Positions 46,798 through 56,147 of a DNA stretch of 64,000 nt are shown here, in pieces. Each line of letters begins with the position of its first letter. Positions within the stretch are counted from its first letter, which is position 1. This DNA comes from Sneathiellales bacterium (GTDB lineage Bacteria > Pseudomonadota > Alphaproteobacteria > JANQFL01): positions 62,001 to 126,000 of the forward strand of contig JANQFL010000011.1 in NCBI GenBank assembly GCA_028277845.1, written 5' to 3'. The translations under genes and the position numbers were made by a program. The notes beneath the pieces are model-generated. The model was not told the origin of the DNA, did not search any database, and was given only the letters and a program-made list of their open reading frames with translations.

Positions 46798-47976
46798 TCA
46801 GGCGGCGTCCGTTTCGCCGATATGCTCCTGGCTGAGCTTGGCGATCAGATACTCGACGCTTTCGCGGTCGAAACCGTCCTCGAAATGAGTCAACACACGC
46901 TCGATCATGCGGTGTTTGTAACGCTCGCGGTCGTCGGGTCCGCCGTCATAGTCCGTTTCCATGGCCACGTCGACGGCAACGCGGAAGAACGGAAACATCC
47001 GGTCCGGCAGATCGCATTTCTCATAGAGACGGTCGAAGCCGGACTTGCCGTGATCCTGTATCAGCACATGTGCGCTTGAAATCGGGATATTGGCCAAGCG
47101 TGCCAACGCGGCTTCGAAAAAGTCCAGATCGCCGGTGCACAGGGCGCGTAGAATAATGGTCGATGTCAGCCGGTGGTTGCTGTGCAGATGCTCCACCAGT
47201 TCGATGGAGTCCATGGGTCCCTTGCCGCCCTTCAACAACGAAACGGTCGCCCGTTCGCGGCTTTGCAGGACAAGATCGGCGGCCATGTCCGACGGCAATT
47301 CATGGTGGGTCACGAGATGTTCCCGCAGGCTGTCGGACACCAAGTGAACCAGCTGTTCGGCCACAGAAATCGGAATCTGCGAACGTTCGACCATGGACCG
47401 GTTGATGCGCTCGTTGTCGCCGAACGTATCGATGACCTTATGGAATGTCGGCTCGGCGATGTCGGCGCCTTCGTTCGACATCAACGTGGCCACGACATCC
47501 TCGTTCTTGCTGTCGACCAGGGCATCCGCGACGGCCGAGGACACGGACTTGCGTTGCGCGATGGCGACCTGGTGGTCCGCGCCCTTGGACCGGACGATCT
47601 TCAGCAGGTCCTCTTCCGTCAGCACGTCCGACATTTCCAGCATCGGCGCCGCGACTTCCCGTTCGTCCTCGGCCAGGCGCAGGGCGACGTCGTGCGGAAC
47701 CTCGGGGTTTTCGCTGAGGTGCTCGGACAGCGCCTTACGCACACGAATTTCGGCGTCGCGCATCAAGTGGCGGACAATCTCGACCGCGATGCTGCGTTCG
47801 GAATCCGACAGTTCGGTTTGATTGAACTGATGCGCAACTTTCGCCGCGGTTTCAGCGCGGGCGTCCGAGGACGGATCGGTAAGCAATCGCTCGACGTCGG
47901 ACGGAGTGAGATGCAGACCTTCAGACAATGTGATCGGGCTCCGGTTTTCCACCGATCCACACCTGTAGACGGGCAT
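46798..47976 (-). CDS. DUF2336 domain-containing protein
   Basis: Helical repeat-like protein of 392 aa of the DUF2336 family, common in alphaproteobacteria and of unknown function. Successive short helices (AETAAKVAHQFNQTELSDSE, HLMRDAEIRVRKALSEHLS, NPEVPHDVALRLAEDEREVA) resemble HEAT-like scaffolds. It has no signal peptide and is probably cytoplasmic. It starts at an ATG and shares a terminator with dctM. Nearby genes give no clue to its role. Confidence 0.88.
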   Translation of the reverse strand: MPVYRCGSVENRSPITLSEGLHLTPSDVERLLTDPSSDARAETAAKVAHQFNQTELSDSERSIAVEIVRHLMRDAEIRVRKALSEHLSENPEVPHDVALRLAEDEREVAAPMLEMSDVLTEEDLLKIVRSKGADHQVAIAQRKSVSSAVADALVDSKNEDVVATLMSNEGADIAEPTFHKVIDTFGDNERINRSMVERSQIPISVAEQLVHLVSDSLREHLVTHHELPSDMAADLVLQSRERATVSLLKGGKGPMDSIELVEHLHSNHRLTSTIILRALCTGDLDFFEAALARLANIPISSAHVLIQDHGKSGFDRLYEKCDLPDRMFPFFRVAVDVAMETDYDGGPDDRERYKHRMIERVLTHFEDGFDRESVEYLIAKLSQEHIGETDAA

Positions 47977-48064: not shown

Positions 48065-48787
48065 TCAGGCCAATGCTTTTTCGACCCGGGTAATGGCATC
48101 TTCGACGGAAATCGCCGTGGCCGCGGTGATTTCCAGATCCCGGTCTTCCAGCACGTCGCCGTCCTCATGGTTGTGTTTCCATGCTTCGACGACCGCATCC
48201 CGTTCCGTGACCAGGGCCTCGATCTCGGGCCGGAACAGGACGAACATCGCGGAAATCCAGCGGTTCGCGGGCCAGGAGGGGTAGGCGTGATCGATGACGA
48301 ACCGGTCGATCAACTGGCACACGTCCTCCGACCGGTACCAGGATTCGCCGGTGACCCAGCGGTTGGTGGAAAACAGGCGAAACGGAAAGCCATAGGAATC
48401 CATGGATATGGCGACAAAGTGGGTCAGCGCATCGTCGCCCTTGGGCCATTCCGACTTGTCGGGATGGTCCACCGGCTTGCACGAGGACGGCATGCCTTTT
48501 TTGCGCAGAAAAGTATGGAAGTGACCGTGTTCGTTTTCCGTGCCGCGGTGCGCATGATAGTAGTATTGCGCGTGGGTCTCCTGGTCGTAGACGTCGCCGT
48601 CGGGATAGTGGTTCCATTCGTAAAACGTCTCGGTGCCCGCAATGATTTCGCGGACGACGTTGGAACCGCCCTTCTTCAGCACCCGGTAACACTCGTTGAT
48701 CTCCCGGCCCGCCTCGCGCATGGCCAGCAGTGCCTCCTGCGGCAGATGATGGACATCGGCCAGTTGCTCAAGTTGCGTCGTCGTCAC
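48065..48787 (-). CDS. His-rich conserved protein (DUF6969-like)
   Basis: A 240-aa protein I link to the DUF6969 family, with moderate confidence. Its striking feature is a histidine cluster, THAQYYYHAHRGTENEHGHF, a possible metal site, followed by SMDSYGFPFRLFSTNRWVTG and WYRSEDVCQLIDRFVIDH. There is no signal peptide. The start is uncertain: I chose the GTG at 48787, which has GGAG 8 bases upstream. It lies 67 bp downstream of the SUMF1 gene on the same strand, so co-transcription is likely. Confidence 0.75.
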   Translation of the reverse strand: MTTTQLEQLADVHHLPQEALLAMREAGREINECYRVLKKGGSNVVREIIAGTETFYEWNHYPDGDVYDQETHAQYYYHAHRGTENEHGHFHTFLRKKGMPSSCKPVDHPDKSEWPKGDDALTHFVAISMDSYGFPFRLFSTNRWVTGESWYRSEDVCQLIDRFVIDHAYPSWPANRWISAMFVLFRPEIEALVTERDAVVEAWKHNHEDGDVLEDRDLEITAATAISVEDAITRVEKALA

Positions 48788-48854
48788 TCTCTTCACACTC
48801 CATACATGGATTCGATGGATGCGCCCGTCCAAACTAGCGGCCGTACCATGTGGG

Positions 48855-49751
48855 TCAATGCCCGTCCTCCCTGACCAGGCGGAACCCGATCAGAATATGC
48901 TTGATGTCCAGCGGCCGGCCATGCCGCGCCGCCGGGCGGCAGACGCCACAGCCCTTGTCGTCCCAGGAACCGCCCTTGACCACGAAATGCGTCGGCGCTC
49001 CGTCCGCGTTGCGACGCCATGGCGTGCGCGTCCATTCGAAGACCTGTCCGGCGGCATCCAGCATGCCGTACGGGCTGGCACCGTTGGGAAAGGACGCGAC
49101 GGGCAGCGTGTCGAACGGCCCGCGGTCGTGGCTGTTCAGCCGGTCGGCCTGGTAGGTGTTGCCCCACGGGAAGCGGCGGCCGTCGGTTCCCCTGGCGGCC
49201 TTCTCCCATTCCGTTTCGGACGGCAGGCGCCAGGCCCGGCCCGTTCGTCGACTGAGCCAGGCGGCAAATGCCTCGGCGTCCTTCAGCGATACCATCACGA
49301 CCGGATGATCGCCGCGGCCCTCCGGATATTCCCCGCCGGACCAGGCGAATTTGCGGGTCCGCTGATAGGGATGGATCAGGCCATAGGACGTCCACACCCG
49401 CGGCGCGACGTCGGGCGCGGGATGCCCGGTGGCGGCAACGAACGCGGCGTACTGCCGGTTGGTGACGGGAGTCGCGGTGATGGAAAACGATTTTGTCGAG
49501 CGGACGCCGCGGGCCGGTTCGGATTCGTACCATCGATGTTTCCGGGTAATGCCGTGACCGTAGGCGGCCTCGTCCAGACGGTAGCCGTATTCGCGCTCCT
49601 GGCGGTCCGATCCGGCGACGAATTCTCCCGCGGGAACTGCAACCACGCGTGGAATTTCCGTTGCGCCGCCGGCCGCCGGCGCACTCGTCCCCGACACGGA
49701 CAGGCTGCAACCAAATCCAAACATGGCGGCCGCCAAAACCGAAGACTGCAC
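48855..49751 (-). CDS. Secreted SUMF1/formylglycine-generating-enzyme-like protein
   Basis: SUMF1-fold protein of 298 aa with an N-terminal export signal (SSVLAAAMFGFGCSLSVSG; the Cys in FGFGC could be a lipobox, though atypical). The body shows the FGE pattern: VPAGEFVAGSDRQE, ITATPVTNRQYAAFV, WRLPSETEWEKAARG, GQVFEWTRTPW and VVKGGSWDDKG. Near the end is CGVC (residues about 270-275), where FGEs carry catalytic cysteines, but with different spacing. Function may be oxidation or modification of an extracytoplasmic substrate. It diverges from the NPC-repeat cytochrome. GTG start. Confidence 0.85.
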   Translation of the reverse strand: MQSSVLAAAMFGFGCSLSVSGTSAPAAGGATEIPRVVAVPAGEFVAGSDRQEREYGYRLDEAAYGHGITRKHRWYESEPARGVRSTKSFSITATPVTNRQYAAFVAATGHPAPDVAPRVWTSYGLIHPYQRTRKFAWSGGEYPEGRGDHPVVMVSLKDAEAFAAWLSRRTGRAWRLPSETEWEKAARGTDGRRFPWGNTYQADRLNSHDRGPFDTLPVASFPNGASPYGMLDAAGQVFEWTRTPWRRNADGAPTHFVVKGGSWDDKGCGVCRPAARHGRPLDIKHILIGFRLVREDGH

Positions 49752-49946: not shown

Positions 49947-51239
49947 ATGACCAGTCTCAAAAAGAAACTGCTCTGTACGACGGTCATACCGCTCGTGCTG
50001 GGCGTTGGTGTTGTCGCGACCGGCGTGGTCATCGCGCCGGAAACGCCGCAGGCGTCCTGCGCCGCCAATCCCTGCGCGGCCAAGAACCCCTGCGCGGCAA
50101 AGGCATGCAACCCGTGCGCCGCCAAGAACCCGTGCGCCGTCAAGAAAGTCTGCAATCCCTGCGCGGCCAAGAACCCATGCGCGGCGAAGGCGTGCAATCC
50201 TTGCGCAGCCAAGAATCCCTGCGCAGCGAAGGCCTGTAACCCGTGCGCGGCAAAGGCATGCAATCCGTGTGCGGCGAAGAACCCCTGCGCCGCCAATGCC
50301 TGTAATCCTTGCAACCCCTGCGCCGCCGGCGCCACGGCGTCCGCCAAGTGTTTCGTCCCGCGGCTGCAAGTGGCTGCGTTGAAGAACCCCTGCGCGGCCA
50401 AGGCCTGCAATCCCTGTGCGGCGAAGAACCCATGCGCCGCGAATGCCTGCAATCCGTGCGCCGCGAAGAACCCTTGCGCCGCCAAAACCGCATCGGCCTG
50501 CAACCCCTGCGCCGCCAAGAACCCATGCGCGGCCAAGGCCTGCAATCCCTGTGCGGCGAAAAATCCGTGCGCAACCAAGGTCGCGGCGGCCTGTAACCCG
50601 TGCGCGGCGAAGAATCCCTGCGCGGCCAAGGCCTGCAATCCGTGCGCCGCGCAAAACCCCTGCGCCGCCAAGAACCCCTGTGCGGCCAATGCCTGCAACC
50701 CCTGCAATCCGTGCAACCCCTGCGCCGCTGCGGTGGATGTGGAGCTGACGGCGGCCGAAGCGATTGCCGCCTACGATTGCCTCAAGACCGAGTTGCGCGC
50801 CGGCTACGGAAGGTCGGGCGTGCAGGTCGCAAGCCTCTATCAGGACTGGAAGGTGTACAGCAAACAGCCCTATCAGTCGGGCACCCACGGCGGGCGTTAT
50901 GTGCACAACTACGGCAACGCCTTGGCGCGCGACTACATCAAGTTCGAGGATGTCGGACGGTTGCGGGTCGGCGCCATGCTGGCCAAGGACAGCTATGTCG
51001 CCATGCCGGACGGCAAGCTGGCCGCCGGGCCCTTGTTCCTGATGGAGAAGATGCCGGCCGGCGTGACCACCAATGCCGGCAACTGGGCCTACACGCTGAT
51101 CATGGCGAATGGCCAGGTCGTCGGTACAACCACCGGACAGGGATCCGCCAACGTGGCCTTCTGCAACGAGTGCCACGCGGCGGCCGACGAAACCGACGCT
51201 TTGATGTTCCTGCCCGACGAATACCGGGTGGATCATTAA
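49947..51239 (+). CDS. Cytochrome P460-type protein with NPC-repeat domain
   Basis: Unusual 430-aa exported haem protein. Residues about 1-37 form an export signal (KLLCTTVIPLVLGVGVVATG). Residues about 38-262 are a cysteine-rich repeat of about 30 NPC units, mostly NPCAAKNPCAAKAC, broken once by GATASAKCFVPRLQVAALK. Residues about 263-430 match the cytochrome P460/c'-beta family: YQDWKVYSKQPYQSG, VHNYGNALARDYIKF, AAGPLFLMEKM, and a haem motif C406-NE-C-H410. The repeat may bind metal or form disulfides. P460 versus c'-beta cannot be settled from sequence. ATG start after AAGGCAC. Confidence 0.88.
   Translation: MTSLKKKLLCTTVIPLVLGVGVVATGVVIAPETPQASCAANPCAAKNPCAAKACNPCAAKNPCAVKKVCNPCAAKNPCAAKACNPCAAKNPCAAKACNPCAAKACNPCAAKNPCAANACNPCNPCAAGATASAKCFVPRLQVAALKNPCAAKACNPCAAKNPCAANACNPCAAKNPCAAKTASACNPCAAKNPCAAKACNPCAAKNPCATKVAAACNPCAAKNPCAAKACNPCAAQNPCAAKNPCAANACNPCNPCNPCAAAVDVELTAAEAIAAYDCLKTELRAGYGRSGVQVASLYQDWKVYSKQPYQSGTHGGRYVHNYGNALARDYIKFEDVGRLRVGAMLAKDSYVAMPDGKLAAGPLFLMEKMPAGVTTNAGNWAYTLIMANGQVVGTTTGQGSANVAFCNECHAAADETDALMFLPDEYRVDH
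50058..50732 (+). repeat. NPC-repeat region inside the cytochrome gene
   Basis: About 225 codons encode about 30 copies of NPC separated by AAK or AAKAC, so cysteines are spaced mainly C-x5-C and C-x4-C-x2-C. The units differ at many synonymous positions (CCG, CCC, CCT and TGC, TGT alternate) while the amino acids are kept, which points to selection on the protein rather than recent DNA duplication. Confidence 0.9.
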
Positions 51240-51527: not shown

Positions 51528-51908
51528 ATGAAGGCATCGAAGCTGTTCGCCCTGGGCACCGCAGTGGTCATTGCTCTCGCGTCGACCTCGGCGATGGCGG
51601 GCGATGTGAAGAAGGGCAAGAAGGTGTTCAACAAGTGCAAAGCCTGCCACACCTTGAAAGCCGGCGGTAAGAACAAGGTCGGCCCCAACCTGCACGGCGT
51701 GTTCGGCCGCGAGGCCGGTAAGGTCGAAGGGTTCAAATACTCCAAGGCAATGTTGAAATCCGGCGTGGTGTGGGACGACGACACCATGGACAAATATCTG
51801 ACCAAGCCGAAGAAATTCATTCCGAAAAACAAGATGGCGTTCGCCGGACTGAAAAAGAAAAAGCAACGCGACGACGTCATTGCCTACATGAAGGAAATGA
51901 CCAAGTAA
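51528..51908 (+). CDS. Class I cytochrome c (c2-like)
   Basis: Small periplasmic haem protein of 126 aa. The signal peptide ends near [12 protein letters not shown]. The haem site is [10 protein letters not shown], followed by the c2-type [14 protein letters not shown], and the axial Met lies in [19 protein letters not shown]. The long run of lysines suggests docking to an acidic partner. It is the closest plus-strand neighbour of the P460-type gene but is separated from it by a terminator, so co-regulation is not implied. Confidence 0.94.
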
Positions 51909-52429: not shown

Positions 52430-55018
52430 TTAAGCGGCGACGGCGGCGGCTTTGGCCCGGCGCCCGCGCTGTACCATGAACACCAAGCCCAGCAGCAATA
52501 GCGCCGGAAGGAAGAACCACTGCTTGGCCGGCCGGTCGGCCGGAACCTTGACGCTGACGATTTCGAAGTCGAAGTCGAATCCGGCGCCCTCGGCTTCGCT
52601 GCCGAACGCCATGTTATCGACCAGCATCCTGCCGTCTTCCTCGCGCAGTTCCAGACCGACCTTCATCAGCCGGTCCTTGCCCTCGCCCGGTTCCTGCATG
52701 CCCAGGGTGACAACCTTTTCGACGTCCTTGCCTTCCAGGTTGACCCCGCTGATCATCATTTTCAGGGTATCGCCCTGTGGAATCGACTTGGCGACTTCAT
52801 AGATCCGTGTACCCGCCACGTCTTCGAACGGCGGCTTGATCATATCCATCCAGAAGCCCGGTCTGAACAGGGTGAAGGCGATGAGTAACAAAGCCACCGT
52901 TTCCCAGATCCTGCTTCTGGCGATAAAGAATCCTTGGGTCGCGGCGGCGAAAACGAGCATGGCTAGCACCGCGATCAAGATGGTTATCGCCAAATGTACC
53001 GGTCCGGTAATGCCGATCATCAGCAACTCGGTATTGAAGATGAACAGGAACGGCAGGATCGCCGTGCGGATGTCGTAAGCGAAACCCTGCAGGCCCGTCT
53101 TGATCGGATCGCCGCCGGATATGGCCGCACCGGCAAAGGCCGCCAGACCGACCGGTGGCGTATCGTCGGCAAGGATACCGAAATAGAACACGAACATGTG
53201 GGCGGCGATGAGCGGTACAATCAGTCCGGTCGCCGCACCGAGGTTGACGATCACCGGCGCCATCAGGGACGAAACGACGATGTAGTTCGCCGTGGTCGGC
53301 AGGCCCATGCCCAGGATCAGGCTAATAATGGCGGTGAAGATCAGAATGAGGATCAGATTGCCACCGGAAATCAGTTCGACAAACTCGATCATCACCTGGC
53401 CGATACCGGTCAACGTGATCGTACCGACGATGATGCCGGCCGCCGCGGTGGCGATGCCGATGCCGATCATGTTGCGGGCGCCGGCGACCAGACCGTTGAA
53501 CAGATCTGTCAGGCCTTCCCGGATCTTTGCGGCTTCTTCCCCGCCTTGCCCGCGGAACAACGCGAGCAACGGTTTCTGTGTGACGATAATGAACATCATG
53601 AAGACCGTCGCCCAGAACGCCGACGTGCCAGGCGACAGACGCTCCACCGTCAGCAGCCAGACAAGAACGACAACTGGCAGCAAGAAGTGGAAACCTGCCT
53701 TCACGGTCGGACCGACCGGTGGCAGTTCGTCGATGGCATGATCCATCGGCAAATCGGGAACACGGGACGAATACCCCAGCAGACCGACATAGCCGAAAAA
53801 CAACAAACCAGCCATGACCCAGCCCGTCGCCTCACCGGCGAAGCCCTTGATGAGTTCGACGACCGGCGGCAGAACATAGACCAGGGCGCCGAGCAGGATG
53901 ACAACGCTGAGCACGCCGATCATCTTGGCCTTGAGGTCCATTTTGTGGACACGCGGCAGACCCATCATGTCGGCCTTCATGGCCTCGAGGTGCACGATGT
54001 ACACCAGGGCGATGTAGGAAATCACCGCCGGCAGAAACGCGTGTTTGATGACCTCCACGTAGGAAATGCCGACATATTCGACCATGAGAAACGCCGCAGC
54101 GCCCATGATCGGCGGCGTCAATTGGCCGTTGGTGGACGACGCCACTTCAACCGCGGCGGATTTCTCCGCCGAGAAGCCGACGCGCTTCATCAACGGAATC
54201 GTGAAGGTGCCGGTGGTCACCACATTGGCGATTGAGGAACCGGAGATCATGCCGGTCATGGCCGACGACACCACGGCGGCCTTGGCCGGTCCGCCGCGGA
54301 AATGTCCCATCAAGGCGAAGGCGACCCGGATGAAGTAATTGCCGGCGCCCGCCTGTTCGAGCAACGACCCGAACAGAACGAACAGAAACACCATGGTGGC
54401 GGACACGCCGATGGCGACGCCAAAAACGCCCTCGGTGTCGATCCAGTAGTGCGAGGCACCTTTGGACAGCGACTGGCCCTTGTGGGCGATCACATCGGGC
54501 ATGTATTGCCCGGCAAAGGTATAAATCAGAAAGACGATGGCCACGATCATCAGCGGTGGGCCCAGGGCGCGCCGCGTCGCCTCCAGCAAAAGAAGCACGC
54601 CGACGACACCGACCCAGATGTCCAACTGGGTCGGATCGCCCGACCGGTCAGCCAATTCATCCCTCAATACAATAAGGTAGATGGACGTCGCGGCAGCCAC
54701 GAGGGCCATGACCCAGTCGTGCAGGGGAATTCGATCCCTGGGAGACCGCTTGGTGGCCGGGAAACTAAGAAAGCCAAGAAAAATGGCGAAAGCGAGGTGA
54801 AATCGTTTAACGACGGTTTCGTTCATCCACGGGCTGAATTCCAGCACCAGAGGCGAAGAGACATAAACTTGAAAAACCGACCAGATCAGGGCGGCATAAA
54901 TCAGCAGTTTCGCAATCGTTGTGTTGGTCGGACTCCGAGCGCCGGTATCGGCATCGGCGACCATCTGTTCGGCTTCGCTGCCTGGCGATGGTTTACTGTT
55001 GTCCGCATCGTTGGCCAT
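52430..55018 (-). CDS. Fused TRAP transporter permease (TAXI type)
   Basis: Fused DctQ-DctM-like permease of 862 aa. The first third carries the small-subunit-like helices, and the rest the large subunit with SGSSIANVVTTGTFTIPLM, EVASSTNGQLTPPIMGAAAF and IILGMGLPTTANYIVV-type strands. The C-terminal about 140 residues match DUF3394, a domain typical of TAXI-TRAP permeases. The ATG at 55018 follows AGGAGGGGAG. It transports the ligand captured by the TAXI receptor encoded upstream, from which it is separated by a hairpin. Confidence 0.93.
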   Translation of the reverse strand: MANDADNSKPSPGSEAEQMVADADTGARSPTNTTIAKLLIYAALIWSVFQVYVSSPLVLEFSPWMNETVVKRFHLAFAIFLGFLSFPATKRSPRDRIPLHDWVMALVAAATSIYLIVLRDELADRSGDPTQLDIWVGVVGVLLLLEATRRALGPPLMIVAIVFLIYTFAGQYMPDVIAHKGQSLSKGASHYWIDTEGVFGVAIGVSATMVFLFVLFGSLLEQAGAGNYFIRVAFALMGHFRGGPAKAAVVSSAMTGMISGSSIANVVTTGTFTIPLMKRVGFSAEKSAAVEVASSTNGQLTPPIMGAAAFLMVEYVGISYVEVIKHAFLPAVISYIALVYIVHLEAMKADMMGLPRVHKMDLKAKMIGVLSVVILLGALVYVLPPVVELIKGFAGEATGWVMAGLLFFGYVGLLGYSSRVPDLPMDHAIDELPPVGPTVKAGFHFLLPVVVLVWLLTVERLSPGTSAFWATVFMMFIIVTQKPLLALFRGQGGEEAAKIREGLTDLFNGLVAGARNMIGIGIATAAAGIIVGTITLTGIGQVMIEFVELISGGNLILILIFTAIISLILGMGLPTTANYIVVSSLMAPVIVNLGAATGLIVPLIAAHMFVFYFGILADDTPPVGLAAFAGAAISGGDPIKTGLQGFAYDIRTAILPFLFIFNTELLMIGITGPVHLAITILIAVLAMLVFAAATQGFFIARSRIWETVALLLIAFTLFRPGFWMDMIKPPFEDVAGTRIYEVAKSIPQGDTLKMMISGVNLEGKDVEKVVTLGMQEPGEGKDRLMKVGLELREEDGRMLVDNMAFGSEAEGAGFDFDFEIVSVKVPADRPAKQWFFLPALLLLGLVFMVQRGRRAKAAAVAA

Positions 55019-55119
55019 GCTTGACTCCCCTCCTTGCTCGAATGAGCCGCACCACAACGGTGCCCCGGGTGGCGGTCTCCGCTCTCCCCGGTCGTCTCCC
55101 AAATTCGTTTAGATGGTTT

Positions 55120-55151
55120 GGCCGGAGGAATCGAAATGGATTCCTCCGGCC
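55120..55151. repeat. Hairpin between TAXI receptor and permease genes
   Basis: GGCCGGAGGAATC (55120-55132) and GATTCCTCCGGCC (55139-55151) are a perfect 13-bp inverted repeat with a GAAATG loop. Read on the minus strand it lies between the receptor stop codon and the permease, but is not followed by a U-run. It is more likely an mRNA-stabilising or processing element than a full terminator. Confidence 0.72.
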
Positions 55152-55166
55152 GAACCCGGTGGGCCC

Positions 55167-56147
55167 TTACATCAGGCCTGCTTCTTTGTAGTACTTGGCC
55201 GCGCCGTCATGCAGCGGAGCGGACAGGCCGTCTTTGATCATTTCATTTTTCTTCAGCACGCCGAAAGCCGGATGCAGCTTCTTGAACGTGTCAAAGTTTT
55301 CGAAGACGGACTTCACGACCCAATAGACCGTGTCGGCCGGCGTGGCCGTCGAGGACACGAAGGTCGCGCCGACACCAAAGGTTTTGGTGTCGCCCGCGCT
55401 ACCGCGATACATGCCGCCCGGAATGGTGGCGTGACGGTAGAACGCGTTGTCGCCGACCAGTTTGTCGATTGCGGCGCCGGAAACTTCCACGAGCACGCTG
55501 TCGCACGACGTGGTGGCTTCCTTGATCGACCCGCTGGGATGACCGACGGTGAAGACCATGGCGTCGATCTTGTTGTCGCAGAGCGCCTTCGACTGTTCGG
55601 ACGACTTCAGTTCGGACGCCAGCTTGAAGTCCGCCTTGGTCCAACCCATGGCGGCCATGACGACATCCATGGTGCCGCGCTGACCGGAACCCGGGTTGCC
55701 GATATTCACGCGCTTGCCCTTCAGGTCCTTGAAGTGCTTGATGCCGGAATCGGCACGGGCAACCACGGTGAACGGCTCGGGATGGACCGAGAACACGGCG
55801 CGCAGGCCCTCGAACTTACCCTTGTCCTTGAACTTGCTGGAGCCGTGATAGGCATGGTGCTGCCAATCCGACTGGGCGACACCCATGTCCAACTCGCCGG
55901 CGCGGATGGTGTTGATGTTGTACACCGAACCACCCGTGCTTTCGACCGTGCAGCGGATGCCGTGCGATTTACGGCCCTTGTTGACCAGACGGCAAATGGA
56001 ACCGCCGGTCGGGTAGTACACGCCCGTGACACCGCCGGTGCCGATGGTAATGAACTTCTGCTCGGCTTCGGCCGGCGACGCCGAAAGGGTGGCATAGGCG
56101 CCACCAAGCAGCGCTGTCGCTGCGGCTACAGTGAGAAACTTCTTCAT
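55167..56147 (-). CDS. TAXI family TRAP solute-binding protein
   Basis: Periplasmic binding protein of the TAXI subfamily, 326 aa. The signal peptide ends near [11 protein letters not shown], and the mature start is [20 protein letters not shown], the classic TAXI motif. Later segments are [20 protein letters not shown] and [17 protein letters not shown]. It delivers an unidentified ligand (TAXI proteins include glutamate and other organic solutes) to the fused permease next in the operon. It follows the BKACE gene by 188 bp, a gap with no gene. Confidence 0.92.

Follow-up and report, generated by a model that had tools for sequence, protein, structure and literature searches.

What is a cysteine-dense repeat doing on an exported haem protein, and which partner acts with it? 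The question is raised by an intact open reading frame (49947..51239, + strand) in the window, the whole stretch of 64,000 nucleotides of Sneathiellales DNA that was analysed, which encodes a Cys-repeat/cytochrome P460 fusion protein of 430 aa. The protein opens with a predicted export segment (MTSLKKKLLCTTVIPLVLGVGVVATGVVIAPETPQAS, aa 1–37; 49947..50057, + strand), basic and hydrophobic as read from its letters and similar to a KLLS-TVIP-GxG segment conserved among relatives; export is a requirement for c-type haem, and this also served as a basis for the assignment. The arm that follows (aa 37–262, 226 residues) contains 45 Cys (20%) and 30 exact NPC motifs, with successive Cys separated by x2 (16 cases), x5 (13) and x4 (11). 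A sequence-only reading had proposed the export signal, about 30 NPC repeats over about 225 residues, and C-x5-C and C-x4-C-x2-C spacings, all of which were recovered here. It had taken the repeat to be a single uninterrupted run, but there are two blocks, A (50058..50348) and B (50385..50729, both + strand), delimited by the TRF array, unit comparison and motif counts. They flank a spacer, CFVPRLQVAALK (aa 135–146; 50349..50384, + strand), conserved across family members, in which CFVPRL (aa 135–140) forms a C-x-x-P-R-L motif.

TRF detects the repeat array in the gene; the 19 exact NPCAAK units are written in 16 different DNA sequences, and across all NPC units of the window arm pS is 0.70 against a pN of 0.12 (pN/pS about 0.18), with a pN of 0.065 for the NPCAA codons. 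As the unit differences are mainly synonymous, the DNA of the repeat drifts while the protein is kept, and the repeat is under purifying selection, which bears out the earlier suggestion. An assembly or frameshift artefact, which would have undone that reading, is ruled out by the same architecture in all of the best 80 of 290 relatives, which come from independent genomes, isolates included. Separate database searches of the two modules had been proposed, and they gave different outcomes. The haem domain (50730..51236, + strand) matched Pfam Cytochrome_P460 above the cut-off when searched alone (PF16694, aa 298–419, 2.3e-6), while neither the fusion arm nor the standalone repeat peptides described below matched any Pfam or NCBIfam family above cut-off. 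An AlphaFold model of the haem domain, built from 96 homologues (pLDDT 92), had confident PDB matches to the P460/c'-beta fold only, the top 18 all at probability 1.00 (best 7ead, 6hiu, 9hrk, 7s5o and 2je2), with about 15–21% identity to the solved members in the structural match. The CNECH haem c attachment motif (51162..51176, + strand) belongs to a C-x-x-C-H that is invariant in 96 sequences, and the P460/c'-beta-like domain recognised from the sequence was thus upheld.

Across 84,980 species genomes a scan gave 290 relatives, and the best 80 loci were analysed. Every one of these 80 carries a Cys-rich arm, and all are from Alphaproteobacteria or from records labelled just Proteobacteria, with Sneathiella, Kiloniellaceae, Rhodospirillales, Aestuariispira, Pelagibius, Minwuiaceae and many MAGs represented. 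From one orthologue to another, the arm has anything from about 5 to 88 Cys. Across the family, 65% of 2742 arm Cys are preceded by Pro and 54% lie within NPC, C-x2-C makes up 61% of spacings, and exactly one C-x-x-P-[RG]-[LIVM] spacer is present in 60 of 72 full-length members. The canonical FGE substrate motif CxPxR is absent from the window arm and rare in family arms (8 among 2753 Cys). In a tree of the haem domain, 82 Cys-arm sequences separate from 14 Cys-free paralogues (support 0.89), and as the split is without exception it is consistent with a single fusion event. Cys-free P460 paralogues occur at L002, L024, L049, L087 and other loci; the source genome has one (L002), and in Kiloniellaceae one lies in tandem immediately upstream of the fusion, forming a P460 pair. 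Plasmid records gave no match to the P460 domain.

The divergent neighbour of the fusion gene, which the sequence-only reading had passed over, encodes a predicted exported protein of the FGE/SUMF1 family (48855..49751, − strand; PF03781, 3.7e-49), which also matches FGE structures and which, given its co-occurrence with the repeat, is the proposed enzyme on it. All 33 of 33 aligned orthologues keep VKGGSWDDxGCGxCRxAxRHxRP, including two invariant Cys, so that the active-site Cys, the His and the GGSW motif do not vary among them. FGE itself is a mononuclear Cu(I) enzyme in which two Cys hold Cu(I) with a Kd of about 1e-17 M, and in which the substrate Cys becomes the third Cu(I) ligand and is then oxidised by O2 (PMC12123546). 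Like FGE, PvdO and EgtB/OvsA, the partner has the FGE-sulfatase domain (PF03781) with two invariant Cys near the C-terminus, and PvdO is exported, as is predicted for the partner. Unlike them, it has its own GGSWDDxGCGxCR signature, in which the invariant pair, C268 and C271, is C-x2-C, whereas Cys272/Cys277 of S. coelicolor FGE implies C-x4-C, an arrangement that the partner does not have. Because of this replacement, and because the arms are almost without CxPxR, the canonical formylglycine reaction is not claimed, and its chemistry in this protein is regarded as uncertain. Known PF03781 enzymes are linked to sulfatases or pyoverdine, whereas this one is linked to Cys repeats.

The linkage was followed across genomes. 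In Aestuariispira insulae, a culturable relative, FGE, DUF6969 and the fusion stand together at one locus (L027). The FGE-like gene adjoins the fusion in 32 of the 80 best relatives, and an orthologue (58–69% identity) is present in 28 of the 39 genomes of fusion loci, unlinked cases included; in Kiloniellaceae, the FGE-DUF6969-DUF2336-USP-TRAP block is intact while the fusion is relocated and unlinked, and four Sneathiella genomes searched had no orthologue. A sample of 387 alphaproteobacterial genomes, each at least 90% complete, was scored for an FGE orthologue and for a strong match to the Cys-arm P460: 24 had both, 7 FGE only, 10 P460 only and 346 neither (Fisher p=3e-24), and the same count by family was 14/4/5/143 (p=4e-13), p values to be read with the reservation that related genomes are not independent, although both genes are spread over many families. 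In six of the seven FGE-only genomes (G117, G269, G361, G422, G275 and G405), the FGE gene adjoins a standalone, predicted exported Cys-repeat peptide that has neither a haem domain nor CxxPRL. Such FGE-adjacent peptides are as short as about 75–80 aa, and in G275 and G405 the peptide occupies the fusion's syntenic slot between FGE and USP/TRAP. In the seventh genome (G039) the FGE is more divergent, and no DUF6969 was detected. As six of seven FGE-only genomes pair FGE with a standalone repeat, the FGE-like protein tracks the Cys repeat and not the P460 haem domain, and the genetic linkage of the FGE-like gene and the Cys repeat, with or without P460, is well supported.

A second NPC-repeat peptide of the source genome, standalone, predicted exported and about 80 aa long (L140:9489-9731, contig C90), adjoins genes for a VTT-domain (TVP38-like) protein, a MerA-like pyridine nucleotide-disulfide oxidoreductase and a histidine kinase. 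Since haem-free exported repeat peptides lie beside the FGE-like gene in some genomes, and beside a MerA-like flavoprotein gene in this one, the Cys repeat is an independent, separable module. Mapping of repeat and haem together, as had been suggested, thus found the arm in the best 80 of 290 relatives, and also the repeat on its own, so the earlier idea of the repeat as a mere linker on a haem enzyme is not supported. Not every arm requires FGE, as shown by the 10 sampled genomes with a Cys-arm P460 and no FGE and by the NPC peptide beside the VTT and MerA-like genes. Four genomes (G301, G306, G371 and G337) have 11–19 CNPC-coding sites on one strand, which may belong to other NPC-repeat proteins, and no FGE orthologue, G337 carrying a Cys-arm P460 relative (L130). 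In G183 and G395, CNPC-coding DNA recurs at 270-base spacing, in clusters at two or more positions, and is probably unrelated repetitive sequence.

The gene beside FGE encodes a DUF6969 protein (48065..48832, − strand; PF22308, 3.6e-85) with a conserved His-rich core (HYPxGD, QxYYHAH, GHFH). It is a conserved neighbour of the fusion and almost always accompanies the FGE-like gene. Its confident AlphaFold model had no PDB match at E <= 0.001, and it is possibly a new metalloenzyme fold. Downstream of the fusion lies a predicted exported cytochrome c of the c-550 type (51528..51908, + strand; PF00034, 5.4e-13), which is a frequent neighbour, present in the surrounding sequence at about 25 loci, and a possible electron partner; both it and DUF6969 are likely to be accessory. 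Genes for a fused TRAP transporter, a TAXI-type solute protein, USP and DUF2336 (52430-56147 and 46798-47976 of the window) share synteny with FGE/DUF6969 in many families. None of the genes flanking the fusion locus was identified as a copper gene.

How might these parts work together? The protein has two modules, an NPC/CxxC arm around the C-x-x-P-R-L spacer and, joined to it, a c-haem domain of P460 fold, and we suggest that the arm is a client on which the exported FGE/SUMF1-family protein encoded next door would act. After export, presumably in the periplasm, the partner may oxidise selected arm Cys or load Cu(I) onto the arm. The resulting thiolate arm, modified or metal-binding, would hold or buffer a Cu(I)-like metal near a haem that may bind NO or related ligands. 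This proposal draws on analogy with the Cu(I) chemistry of FGE and on the precedent of bufferins and MNIO enzymes. That the partner modifies arm Cys or handles Cu(I), with the repeat as its client, is the reading we prefer, held tentatively and as something short of probable. The points counted against it, which keep it uncertain, are the C-x2-C pair, the rarity of CxPxR, the 10 P460-only genomes, Sneathiella without FGE, the unlinked Kiloniellaceae fusions and the lack of an adjacent copper gene.

Bufferins are copper chelators, Cys-rich peptides that are exported and that MNIO enzymes modify (PMC12452194). The likeness is that of an exported Cys-rich polypeptide paired genetically with a Cys-modifying oxidative metalloenzyme family, and a Buf1|Cytochrom_C|FGE-sulfatase chimaera has been reported among copper-chelating bufferins (PMC12452194). 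Unlike bufferins, however, the repeat has an FGE-family partner with its own signal sequence, and the NPC repeat matches no known family profile. Membership of the bufferin/MNIO system was rejected: no MNIO gene (PF05114) lies beside the fusion gene, and the sole MNIO of the genome lies on a different contig, where it has a precursor of its own. That bufferin-like operon (contig C34, L089) comprises the MNIO (1465-2343), a Cys-containing predicted exported precursor (2379-2690), a 267-aa gene resembling the DUF2063 partner (696-1499) and a small membrane protein gene (195-677). The 'Cys-every-fifth' RiPP family CefA (NCBIfam NF038108) is alike in that standalone peptides L123 and L124 have a Cys at every fifth residue, but the match is sub-threshold (13.1 bits vs a cut-off of 30).

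The strongest alternative is that the arm stays unmodified and serves in the periplasm as a metallothionein-like buffer of metal or thiol, while the FGE-like protein binds or chaperones it without catalysis or donates Cu(I). The predominance of C-x2-C spacing suits such a buffer, as does the wide range in Cys number between orthologues, which would be expected where capacity is what matters; some relatives with the FGE fold have no known FGE activity (SUMF2, GldK/PorK), and some genomes have the arm without FGE. However, every FGE-like orthologue strictly retains GGSWDDxGCGxCR...H, which has the look of an active site, and we consider this alternative unlikely, if a serious contender. Still more doubtful is a structural role, as a disulfide-linked fibre, a cell-envelope anchor or a multimerisation tether for the haem domain. 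Cys-rich proteins do form coats by self-assembly elsewhere (CdeC of C. difficile), and a variable length with a conserved export segment would fit, but peptides of about 75–80 aa standing alone beside FGE or a MerA-like flavoprotein fit a haem tether poorly, and the FGE link would be left unexplained.

Since the C-x-x-P-R-L spacer is similar to CxPxR, the motif of FGE, its single Cys could be what the partner modifies, while the repeat stays passive. One such motif per protein in most full-length members, and the joint lack of motif and FGE in Sneathiella, agree with this. The standalone FGE-linked peptides lack the motif, which weakens the spacer as an obligatory target, L016 and L021 have an adjacent FGE without it, and several motif-bearing genomes have no FGE; we hold this explanation to be quite improbable.

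The haem domain, for its part, resembles P460/c'-beta proteins (PF16694) in fold, in its CxxCH c-haem and in an invariant Lys at the crosslink position, and differs from them in the arm of 5–88 Cys, in a conserved THGxRYVNNYxN motif and, by weak alignment, in apparently lacking a distal carboxylate. Residue roles at the P460/c'-beta alignment positions are set out in Table 2 of PMC11928373. Lys347 (domain K86; 50985..50987, + strand) aligns with Lys70, the crosslink residue in N. europaea P460, in a weak-scoring profile alignment, which also places it, equally weakly, at a Met of N. europaea c'-beta. Given this alignment, and with K86 invariant across 96 sequences, the haem-Lys crosslink that the sequence-only reading had thought possible is plausible. 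The position of the distal carboxylate (Glu/Asp) falls at Ala110/Gly111, again in weak alignments, so hydroxylamine oxidation is not predicted. NsP460 has the Lys crosslink, lacks the distal carboxylate and does not oxidise NH2OH (PMC11928373), and by analogy a crosslinked haem without NH2OH oxidation is provisionally predicted here. The fold and the conserved crosslink Lys position would speak for a classical cytochrome P460 that oxidises hydroxylamine and has a repetitive linker only by chance, but this is hardly credible given that Ala/Gly position and the example of NsP460, and given an arm that is conserved in all close relatives and exists independently.

Returning to the client reading, a wider and somewhat more tentative possibility is that these proteins represent a new class, in which Cys-repeat proteins, either standalone or as an arm on P460, are first exported and then matured through an enzyme of the FGE/SUMF1 family (with DUF6969), as a counterpart of the MNIO/bufferin systems with different enzymology. 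A search of the open-access literature found no paper linking P460 to Cys repeats or naming DUF6969. FGE-family proteins abound in bacteria, but most are without a known substrate, and the pairing with a simple Cys-repeat client offers a directly testable assignment, probably for thiol or copper modification. The P460/c'-beta branch described here is large (a single scan gave up to about 290 relatives) and apparently undescribed, and in marine Alphaproteobacteria it bears on NO and hydroxylamine chemistry beyond the ammonia and methane oxidisers. DUF6969, which matched no known fold, gains a functional context. Many marine alphaproteobacteria have such an arm on an exported haem protein, and its joint inheritance with an FGE relative suggests a system, not described so far, that produces cysteine arms which are modified or bind metal.
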